Below are positions 28,390 through 38,617 of a stretch of 64,000 nucleotides of DNA, piece after piece; within the stretch, counting starts at the first letter, position 1; every line of letters begins with the position of its first letter. This stretch comes from Agroathelia rolfsii (Eukaryota; Basidiomycota; Agaricomycetes; Amylocorticiales; Amylocorticiaceae): positions 2,914,001 through 2,978,000 of the forward strand of contig JABRWF010000006.1 of the NCBI GenBank assembly GCA_018343915.1. Reading direction: 5' to 3'. Made by a program: the position numbers and the translations under genes. A model generated the notes under the pieces. It was not told where the DNA came from, made no database searches, and saw nothing but the letters and a program-made list of their open reading frames with translations.

Positions 28390-31197
<2,808 letters not shown>

Positions 31198-31994: not shown

Positions 31995-34763
<2,769 letters not shown>

Positions 34764-35105
34764 TTAGCAAATAAAGACGACCTCCATGATATGTGTTGGG
34801 GTTTTTATACTAGTATTTCATCGATGAATGCTTGGTTGTTTGGACTCGGTAATATATCTTGCTTTCACACTTACAATAATTTACTTGCATTAATGACAGA
34901 TCGTCGCAGAATAATGGGCTCTCTAAAGTCTGGATCGTATTAAAATTATGTTATGTAGTCCAGCATGCGTCGCCTGCGACCTGTAGTTTGCATTCGCCTC
35001 AAGTATCTAATTGTATGTAATATGTTTGTTTCATGCTATTAATTATCCTGCGAGTCTTCTGGATGAAGCTGAACATAATTCACAAAGCCCCATTTTCTGT
35101 ATGCA
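34764..35105. other. Intergenic region, convergent gene ends
   Basis: 0.34 kb between the 3' ends of DEAH paralogue 2 (+) and the MLKL-like gene (-). Nothing recognisable. Confidence 0.6.
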
Positions 35106-38100
35106 TCACGCAAAATTTGTATGTGAGAACATTAACAAACAAATCACGAAGGATGGAACTGACGGTTGAAATCGATATGTATAACCACTGGGTAACTGCG
35201 GAGGCGAGGTGCCTGGCGGTAGATATGTCGGGACGCATGAAAAGAAGGGTGTATGCTCCTTATTGTACGAAGTCACCAGATAGAAAATGGCCGGCGGCTG
35301 TGGAACCAATTGATGAAATCCCATGTTATGGCCGTGATGATGACCAAAGTTTGAGTGCATAGGCTGAAATCCTGATCCAGAGAAATTGTGCCCAAACCCA
35401 TGATAAATAGACGACGCATGAGGATGGAAAGATTGTGGGGATGAAAAGTCACGCAGCGAGCAATACTGATCGGTCCCTACTCTTGTAACTGAATTTAAAA
35501 AATTATGATTATGGGTTAATCTGACAAGAGAAAACGCAAGGTATTTATTACCTAGCATGAGGTCGTGAAGCCTCACACCCGCCTGTTTGGCCAAAGTGTG
35601 GGCATTATTAATGAGGAACATCCATGCTTCTACTGGCTTTTCCAGAACACGTTCATGAACGACAGAGACTGTAGTCTCATCACCAGCTGGGACCGGCACA
35701 GCAATGCTAGCGCAGCGTTTTTAAGTGTGATCGAATTAAATGTGTTACCAAGATGCGTTACATACCATTTCGTATCGTGAGACACATCAAAGGGATGAGC
35801 TTCTGTCCATTGAGAAGGCCAAGGTTGTCTGATTTGTTGGACCGCATGCATGCGCTGTAGGACGTTCCAGCTCGGACGTTGTAAAAATGGTCCCAGACTC
35901 AGCCAGTTAGCATCATTGAGGATATTACAAATCTTGATAGAACCTTGGAATGACTTCAATCCATTCGCTGTAATGTACTTATCATCTGGAAAATAGACCA
36001 AATCTCCCACTTCGAACATGTATGGTACGATTGGTGCAGCCCTCCATGTCTGTTCATGTAGATTGACTGATAAATTCGACAAGCGAAGTTGACGGAGCGA
36101 AGTTATCGGAGCATCTACTTCATCGTATTCATTCATTAAAGAGGTGACGCGATCAGGTAGTGAAAATGATATTTGTGCATTCGGGAGAAGGTCCTCCATA
36201 AGCAATGCCTAAATTTCATTATCCAGGTTAAAAAAATCCAAGGTTTTATCAGGTTTATCGGGTTGCTCAACTATATGATTGATCTTCATGCGTAATTCAA
36301 GATCGACTAAAAATCACATTAATCTGATGAAAACTATCGCGGAAATTACATTATCCAGGCCATCTTACCTGCCATATCACTCGTATCTTCAAGCTTGTAA
36401 TGCCTCCCTCTGTTGGGTAACATCTAGGTAGCAGAGAGTCAGAAACATTTACTTATCATGTTGTTGAGAAGTGGCATACTTGAAAGCAAGCTGTCCGAAC
36501 AGTCTCTGTCAACCCGTAATTTCTGGCGGTGAGCCATCGGCCGTCTCTTGGTTTTGGAAGGGCCATGACCACAGTCTTGCCCTCTTCGATGCGAAGGCTA
36601 GAATCCTGTAAAGGTGAATTATTGTTAACCACTTTGAAAGCGGCATTCAGTGTATAACATGCCTCTACAAAATCTTGCATTTGACTCTCACTGAGGTCGA
36701 GTTGATTCTGTATATATTCGACAGCATCCTAAGTTCCAATCAATGATGAAATGAGTTGTGGAGGGACACAAGGGCTTGCGCATATACATACAATAATGTC
36801 ACTATACTTTTTATTTAAAGGACATTATTGGCTGACAAACAAGATGGACAGCTGATATTCTTACAAAGCGAAGCAAAAGATCTACAACAGATGCGATGCC
36901 ACGGGACCGGAGCGCATACATCATAAGAGATTGAGGATTTTTCATTTCCACTGTGATTAAGGGAGAGATATAATTATCGGTCGGCATACTTCTACCAGCG
37001 ACATCACTTTATGGTGACTAACTATTCGAAAGCAGAATGAATTTCGTTGGTGACAAGTCATTCGAGTAGCCAATCATTTGTGGGAGACTTTGATGACTGG
37101 AAAGCGAAAGGCACATGAATCATCAATTCGGCGATGACTAGAAAAAAAAGCAGACTTACTATACATTCGATAGAACGATTACATCTCGCGCCCATGCCTG
37201 CAAAAAACTGTTAGTCTTATAAGGCCAAGCCTTTGAGTGATCACAAACTTTGGCCGCTTCTACTTTATCCGGCCCGCTATATCGCTTTATAAGGGCCTTT
37301 TGACCGTCAACGAGGACCTCCTGTGTGCCTTCATACCATTCAGGATATTTGTCAACTATCTGCGAGCCTTTTCGACCTTGCGATCTACCCAGAAGTTTGA
37401 TTTGGGATTGGTGATAGCGGCGAAACTAGAGTGAAAGCTTGGACTTCAATATGTTTTATGCTTATGAACTTAGGCACGAACCCCGTGGTCATCTTCTAGT
37501 GTTGCATGCGCGAGGGCTCCCGTGAGGAGATAATCCTTGGAGTGTTGGAGCTCCTCTCCTTCAGAGGACAGTTGAGAAGACGATTCAACTTCTTCGGCAC
37601 TTGTATATCCCATCTCAGAAACTTGTGGAACTGTCATCTCTTGATCAACTTCCATAATAGATGACGCTTTTCTCTCCTTAGCTCCATGGGGGCAGCTTGA
37701 TCCTTTCCCATTATTCAGAGGCAAACCCAAAGGGCTTACTACCAATTCATCTACAATGAGTGTCGCTTCATTCTGAGGAATTCGAGAAATCTCATTCTTG
37801 ATTGGCTCTGTTACACGGCCCAGTGTTGACGATGTGACAATATAATGAATGTTGATCAATGTCGCGATCTGAGGACGTCGATGAGTAACATCAAACTGCC
37901 CATAAAGTATTTGAAAACTACCTGAAAACTTTGTGATGCATCATCCAATCGCGCGTTAAAGTCATCCAATGTATCTGCGATGGATGCTTGTCGAAGAAAC
38001 CGGGAATGCCACTTGGATTCCACTGGTTGTAAGTTTATGTTAACGGCATTGATTCTGGCGTGCAGACAATAGGGTGCAACCATGTACCTTCAGATCGCAT

Positions 38101-38617
38101 GAACTCATAAACGTCAAGAAGTGTCCTGGAAATAACAAGTTCAGATTCACATAATAGTAGGCTTATCGAGAGAACCCACATACTCTCTAAACTTCTCCAG
38201 ATTCTTCAATAATAACGGCGGGGCCGAGTCCCACCTGCCCTCCATTTGCTCATTGATGTCCAAGAGAATGCGCGCCGCACGTTTTGCTAGCCTCCAGCAC
38301 GCATCTTGATTCGTCTGCACCTTTTGTACACTATCCAGCACAAGCAGCATCACGGACACGGCAGCGCTCGCCCCAGGAACAGGGGCCATCGCCGCCAGCT
38401 GTTGAGCGAGTGTCGTAGCAGTGATGGCGAGCATGAGTGTGTTGTTGGGTGTAACTACTTTCTTCACTATTCTGATTTTGGCCGGCGAAGGCGCCGACCT
38501 GGCGAGGGTTCGTCGAGCCGTGGTGAGAATGCTAGGGGAGCGCGACGGCGGCGACCTCTCTGTTGCTGCTTTTGACTGAGAAACTGAGGACTCGCCTGTC
38601 GTAGACCCGGAAGACAT
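35106..38617 (-). CDS. MLKL-like helical-bundle protein with kinase-like domain
   Basis: Fifteen exons join in phase to 889 residues: 38184-38617, 38088-38125, 37922-38022, 37482-37868, 37249-37425, 37160-37197, 37023-37096, 36865-36950, 36792-36806, 36480-36728, 36369-36423, 36272-36306, 35766-36208, 35552-35706, 35106-35488. Residues about 55-200 resemble the MLKL N-terminal four-helix-bundle family of basidiomycetes (APVPGASAAVSVMLLVLDSV, LAKRAARILLDINEQM, FRETLLDVYEFMRSE). An acidic linker follows. Residues about 335-480 look like a kinase N-lobe and start of C-lobe: beta-3-like KALIKRYSG, WARDVIVLSNVYHQSLPQMIGY, hinge-like FILLSN, DLLLRFYSDIIDAVEYIQ. No HRD or DFG was found, so a pseudokinase is likely. 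Known: animal MLKL uses this order to permeabilise membranes; fungal function is unproven. The start at 38617 was preferred over an upstream ATG at 38710. Confidence 0.75.

Follow-up and report, generated by a model that had tools for sequence, protein, structure and literature searches.

A 64,000-nucleotide stretch of the 37.7-Mb, 8-contig genome of Agroathelia rolfsii (C6:2914001-2978000, hereafter the window) carries a gene whose predicted product has the domain order of MLKL, with an MLKL_N helical bundle, an acidic linker and a pseudokinase without HRD or DFG motifs, followed by a third folded domain. Sequence comparisons indicate that this MLKL-type protein with a third domain is kept in the same form across many mushroom-forming fungi, and its phylogeny points to broadly vertical inheritance. 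By analogy with MLKL, an autoinhibited membrane switch is the most likely reading of its function.

Gene model and domain architecture

The gene lies on the minus strand, and hand splicing guided by homologs gave 17 exons (38617..35039) encoding 870 residues. It was built from the plus strand together with all minus-strand frames and then fitted to the homologs; its 16 introns measure 51-72 nt, 15 being GT-AG and one GC-AG. The last exon (35096-35039) falls outside the gene end at 35106 given in an earlier note on this DNA, made from the sequence alone. A first model of 14 exons and 901 residues was dropped when the homolog alignment exposed two intron stretches and a missing microexon; the Pfam scan, the phmmer search of the PDB, the first homology search and the first homolog alignment of the window protein are based on that model. 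Most homologs in the first alignment begin with MPLR or similar, near window residue 47. The preceding residues 1-46 are also in frame in a second copy of the gene on C7, described below.

The sole Pfam match of the window protein is to PF22215 (MLKL_N), at residues 92-192, with 31.3 bits against a cut-off of 27. In a scan of 59 relatives at E <= 10 (P0075 included), 56 matched MLKL_N and 30 matched PK_Tyr_Ser-Thr; the best MLKL_N E value was 5.7e-11, and P0031 spans positions 5-136 of the 142 in the profile. The structure model of the relative P0001 contains helices at residues 13-31, 37-53, 60-81 and 90-115, a short one at 118-123 and a long one at 125-164, which map to 57-75, 81-97, 104-125, 134-159, 162-167 and 169-208 of the window protein. 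The most hydrophobic 19-mer of the window protein begins at residue 76; in 60 of 71 relatives it begins within the first 70 residues, in the helix that follows the additional N-terminal helix (hG, see below). In a scan of 10 relatives, MLKL_N passed its cut-off in 6 and the kinase family passed its own in one (P0071). An N-terminal MLKL-type four-helix bundle is thus predicted from the Pfam match together with the helical homolog model, in agreement with the earlier note.

The acidic character of the following linker, also described earlier, is borne out by its composition (Table 1). The equivalent region of P0001 (165-227) is mostly disordered in the model. Where MLKL has a two-helix brace between bundle and pseudokinase, the model shows only the long last helix of the bundle and a short helix at 227-231, with disorder in between.

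A family profile matched the N-lobe of the LysM receptor kinase 9gb9 at E 1.8e-4; phmmer against the PDB with the window protein returned 9 sequences at E <= 10, the best at E 0.7 and none useful. The beta-3 lysine is K367, in a column with K in 52, L in 14 and R in 6 of 76 rows, and the alpha-C Glu position is occupied by D384, with Asp in 69 of 69 ungapped rows. The DFG place reads GLP (G in 72, L in 75 and P in 76 of 76 rows), or ALP at residues 487-489 of the window protein, and neither HRD nor DFG is present. The absence of both motifs and a kinase-like N-lobe with a beta-3 lysine had been recognised earlier; the window protein does show the lysine pattern, but the N-lobe was too narrow a description, as the homolog model predicts a complete pseudokinase fold. 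Pfam, the family profile and the confident homolog structure model agree on the MLKL order that had been proposed, in which the bundle is followed on its C-terminal side by a pseudokinase that appears to have lost its catalytic motifs.

The region beyond the pseudokinase, previously put at 400 residues, is modelled in the homologs as a beta-rich domain of about 280. Its later His-rich part, likewise noted before, matches a disordered loop of the P0001 model, where the predicted local distance difference test score is under 50 at residues 667-702. No known family for the domain was found in sequence and structure searches, and a viral fold library returned nothing at E <= 0.001. Outside the full architecture, 10 matches were found among 2650 candidates, all proteins of about 150-490 residues. 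P0075 is a 440-residue fragment that begins in the kinase fold, P0090 and P0091 are shorter pieces, and P0086-P0089 have their start in the segment ahead of the domain and resemble the products of split gene models. At the sensitivity reached and in this size range, the module was found only in the MLKL-like family. It appears to be a further folded domain and, as the earlier note had supposed, has no parallel in MLKL.

Gasdermins (fungal RCD-1, bacterial and animal) gave weak whole-domain structural matches to the C-terminal domain, below the level that allows a claim. If the domain were a diverged gasdermin- or MACPF-like pore-forming fold, the pseudokinase would sit between a necroptosis-type bundle and a pyroptosis-type module. 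No gasdermin sequence match to the domain was found: PF04598 is not among the 25 listed of the 27 families matched by the 59 relatives at E <= 10, and it gave no match at E <= 1 in the 901-residue model of the window protein. The gasdermin family likewise gave no match at E <= 1 in the A. rolfsii genome, in an exon-wise and weak search that matched 1 of 14 control genomes and none over the cut-off. We consider such a combined protein unlikely.

Relatives, descent and the C7 copy

Two homology searches recovered 18 proteins at E <= 0.001 among 7988 scored candidates and 83 among 7996, respectively, giving 85 distinct relatives. Several are metagenome proteins without a species name; those named to species we take all to be Agaricomycetes, the taxonomy having been looked up for two. 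The family alignment (A3) comprises 74 of the 85; P0002, P0006, P0018, P0030, P0075, P0076, P0080 and P0082-P0085 were excluded as fusions, as fragments or as models that are chimeric or distant. In P0002, P0006 and P0085 (Lyophyllum, Tephrocybe and Arthromyces), the annotated protein also includes a thioesterase (PF03061), which may stem from an adjacent gene that annotation joined to it. P0080 (Tephrocybe rancida) retains part of the bundle and the pseudokinase, with an unrelated long tail replacing the C-terminal domain, and may be a chimeric gene model.

A midpoint-rooted tree was computed from 34 rows, comprising 32 of the 85 relatives, the window protein and the C7 copy. Support was 0.88 for Agaricales (a 14-row group), 0.95 for Boletales with Atheliales and Amylocorticiales, and 1.0 for Polyporales (11 rows), where the order names are those we presume for the rows, two having been verified afterwards. 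One exception is Cristinia sonorae (Agaricales per NCBI), which clusters with Antrodiella inside the Polyporales clade, and the window protein stands alone on a long branch. On the whole, the topology suggests that one architecture was passed on broadly by vertical descent.

A protein search of the A. rolfsii genome returned the gene itself, a set of matches on C7 spanning nearly its full length, and two weaker matches on C3 to the N-terminal part. C7:2950001-2980000 is colinear with window 18517-49200 over about 30 kb, in blocks of 82-90% nucleotide identity; the C7 copy therefore represents this locus on a chromosome that is either homologous or duplicated. One gene tried on C3 had a single genome match and one tried in the window had two; together with the colinearity, this gives C6 and C7 the appearance of homologous chromosomes that have diverged, or of a chromosome duplication. 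Apart from the C7 counterpart, the exon-wise search found one locus with the whole architecture in this genome. Copy number was taken from the protein query instead of the PF22215 profile, whose search of the genome gave no match and is uninformative on copy number, as exons were searched singly and the control was also silent. Suillus lakei, Infundibulicybe gibba and T. rancida have two entries each in the homology listings, from a protein database clustered at 90%.

None of the 17 exons is missing from the C7 copy, which has GT (once GC) and AG borders at matching places, an in-frame length and no internal stop. Sixteen exons align without gaps, and the gaps in the linker exon measure 6 and 12 bases. 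Across 866 aligned codons, the window protein and its C7 counterpart share 88% identity, and the ratio of nonsynonymous to synonymous substitution rates (dN/dS, Nei-Gojobori) is 0.28 overall. By part, it is 0.15 for the bundle (residues 56-205), 0.26 for the linker, 0.15 and 0.10 for the pseudokinase halves, 0.51-0.54 for the halves of the C-terminal domain, and 0.71 for residues 1-55. The MLKL-like gene is thus real and under constraint, and its C-terminal domain is less constrained than the rest.

A putative membrane switch and its alternatives

We give roughly even chances to the protein being a conserved Agaricomycetes MLKL-type protein in which a membrane-active bundle is restrained by a dead kinase domain and an extra C-terminal beta domain. 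At rest, the bundle would be masked by the pseudokinase and the C-terminal domain. A signal would reach one of these two, through phosphorylation by an upstream kinase or through binding of a ligand or partner to the C-terminal domain, and the freed bundle would oligomerise. Its very hydrophobic first helix would then insert into the membrane, leading to ion leak and probably cell death. We infer gating, membrane action and cell death by analogy with MLKL. The human MLKL bundle is reported to be toxic in yeast (PMC10205182). The purifying selection and the vertical descent point to a steady physiological task and less to a fast-evolving arms-race receptor.

Several observations weigh against such a switch. 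The homolog model lends no support to autoinhibition. An extra helix precedes the bundle, along with the 46-residue extension in the window protein; the available passages of PMC9815663 place the membrane-active helix of HET-S and MLKL near the very N-terminus, and for that reason its authors refrain from a cell-death claim for Goodbye-type bundles. PMC10205182 also reports no detected plasma-membrane association of the human bundle in yeast. The open reading frames of at least 190 residues between 20 and 56 kb in the window, two of which were scanned against Pfam, included none recognised as NLR-, protease- or RIPK-like. Its conservation by vertical inheritance would also be compatible with a gene for signalling that does not kill the cell. 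On the side of the bundle, a 7-sequence profile reached mouse MLKL (4btf) in the PDB at a non-significant E of 0.81, and 4 of 10 relatives scored under the MLKL_N cut-off.

Such a non-lethal role could be filled by a scaffold, in which the bundle is an adaptor for membranes or partners and the pseudokinase and C-terminal domain form a hub for interactions in some routine process of the cell such as trafficking, cell-wall or stress signalling, with no lysis or cell death. This is consistent with the single locus of the architecture besides the C7 counterpart, purifying selection on bundle and pseudokinase, vertical inheritance, and a neighbourhood in which partial annotation recognised no death-pathway gene. 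The characterised relatives of the bundle (MLKL, HET-S/HELLP and the plant RPW8 type) instead act on membranes in cell death, according to the sections of PMC12881547 and PMC9815663 consulted. We regard the scaffold as the main rival of the switch, and as a possible explanation to be taken tentatively.

The bundle results also bear on whether the likeness to MLKL reflects common descent. Because the profile reached MLKL only at E 0.81, and Foldseek and VIA searches with the whole model returned lists filled by kinases, the link between bundle and MLKL rests on Pfam and helix order. Helical bundles readily match each other: the PDB list of the bundle profile mixes in unrelated helical proteins and designed bundles, and 6 of the 59 relatives also touch the Goodbye family (E <= 10). 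A generic bundle that scores on MLKL_N by chance could then have been fused to a pseudokinase in mushroom fungi. Such convergence is hard to reconcile with MLKL_N scores that exceed the curated cut-off for the window protein and 6 of 10 relatives, with the near-full profile match of P0031, with a domain order identical to that of MLKL, and with the HHpred probability above 98% for the match of basidiomycete MLKL-like bundles to human MLKL given in a passage of PMC9815663. We judge it very improbable. The earlier observation is confirmed with corrections, and its interpretation as an MLKL-like protein is partly supported.

MLKL-type proteins are executioners in animals and plants. Where the fungal work consulted deals with the related bundle, it does so mostly for NLR and amyloid systems. 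An Agaricomycetes family that is inherited vertically and has a true MLKL order raises the questions of whether gating of a bundle by a pseudokinase is an ancient eukaryotic mechanism and what role it had before its use in arms races. Tractable mushrooms such as Coprinopsis cinerea or Schizophyllum commune would lend themselves to such study, provided that the gene is present in them. A C-terminal domain that senses a ligand could show what the input is, and a gasdermin-like one would unite two death machines that otherwise occur apart.

Just downstream of the MLKL-like gene lie two tandem helicase copies of about 69% identity (window 28813-31014 and 32461-34707), both with Helicase_C over the cut-off and presumably of the DEAH type. 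By resemblance, we take other neighbours to be a CBS/CNNM-type protein, a glycogen synthase and a PP2C phosphatase. On C3, at about 2332000-2339400 (L024:4058-4612, L024:9304-9999 and L025:42-1413), two neighbouring places encode bundle relatives of 38% and 47% identity. They are below the reach of Pfam. An exon encoding an SH3 domain follows downstream (SH3_1, E 4.2e-7), which suggests bundle-plus-SH3 proteins.

Table 1 Features of the MLKL-like gene in window coordinates
Feature	Position	Strand	Basis
Whole gene	35039..38617	-	hand splicing with homologs as guide; borders preserved in C7 copy
Exons 1-6	38617..38184, 38125..38088, 38022..37922, 37868..37482, 37425..37249, 37197..37160	-	
Exons 7-12	37096..37023, 36950..36865, 36806..36792, 36728..36663, 36605..36480, 36423..36369	-	
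Exons 13-17	36306..36272, 36208..35766, 35706..35552, 35488..35164, 35096..35039	-	
Microexon 9, 15 nt (YSDII)	36806..36792	-	same sequence in C7 copy
N-terminal extension, residues 1-46, basic/Ser-rich	38480..38617	-	weak constraint; homologs without aligned counterpart
Predicted MLKL_N helical region, residues 47-205, exons 1-3 and part of 4	37827..38479	-	Pfam, homolog model, alignment
Acidic linker, residues 206-321	37423..37826	-	20 D+E against 8 K+R; median identity to homologs 0.20
Predicted pseudokinase, residues 322-590	36071..37422	-	family profile, alignment, homolog model; dN/dS 0.10-0.15
Predicted C-terminal beta-rich domain, residues 591-870	35039..36070	-	homolog models; dN/dS 0.51-0.54
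His-rich insert in C-terminal domain, residues about 770-812	35283..35411	-	disordered in homolog models

Comparison with known systems

Among the matches listed in the open-licence literature, no description of an MLKL-like family with a third domain was found. Fungal proteins with a HELL domain and a kinase or pseudokinase, which would share the MLKL-like layout, are mentioned in PMC12881547, apparently in a figure legend; the comparison rests on a one-sentence mention that gives no family, taxa or third domain. In early-diverging fungi, MLKL-family homologs with Sel1 repeats occur in Glomeromycotina, according to a passage of PMC8778642. Plant MLKL and wheat Pm13 are likewise MLKL proteins with an MLKL_NTD, as stated in an excerpt of PMC10951266, but belong to the plant lineage. 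The likeness to gasdermins is confined to the weak structural matches of the C-terminal domain.

A further bundle for comparison is the BaMLKL domain, for which the available part of PMC9815663 describes four bundle helices preceded by an extra N-terminal helix, hG, with a short hM separating h3 from h4; the order hG, h1, h2, h3, hM, h4 fits the six helices of the homolog model. In basidiomycetes, the same part describes MLKL-like domains at NLR N-termini or as singular proteins. In these BaMLKL, HeLo, HELL and Goodbye systems the bundle thus heads NLRs or stands alone, whereas here it heads a predicted pseudokinase, and no NTPase domain was found in the window protein by Pfam.

As in animal MLKL, the MLKL_N bundle of the fungal protein is followed by a linker and then by a pseudokinase that lacks catalytic motifs. 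The fungal protein differs in having an additional N-terminal helix, a long and mostly disordered acidic linker, Asp at the alpha-C Glu position in all ungapped rows of the alignment, and a folded domain that continues past the pseudokinase.
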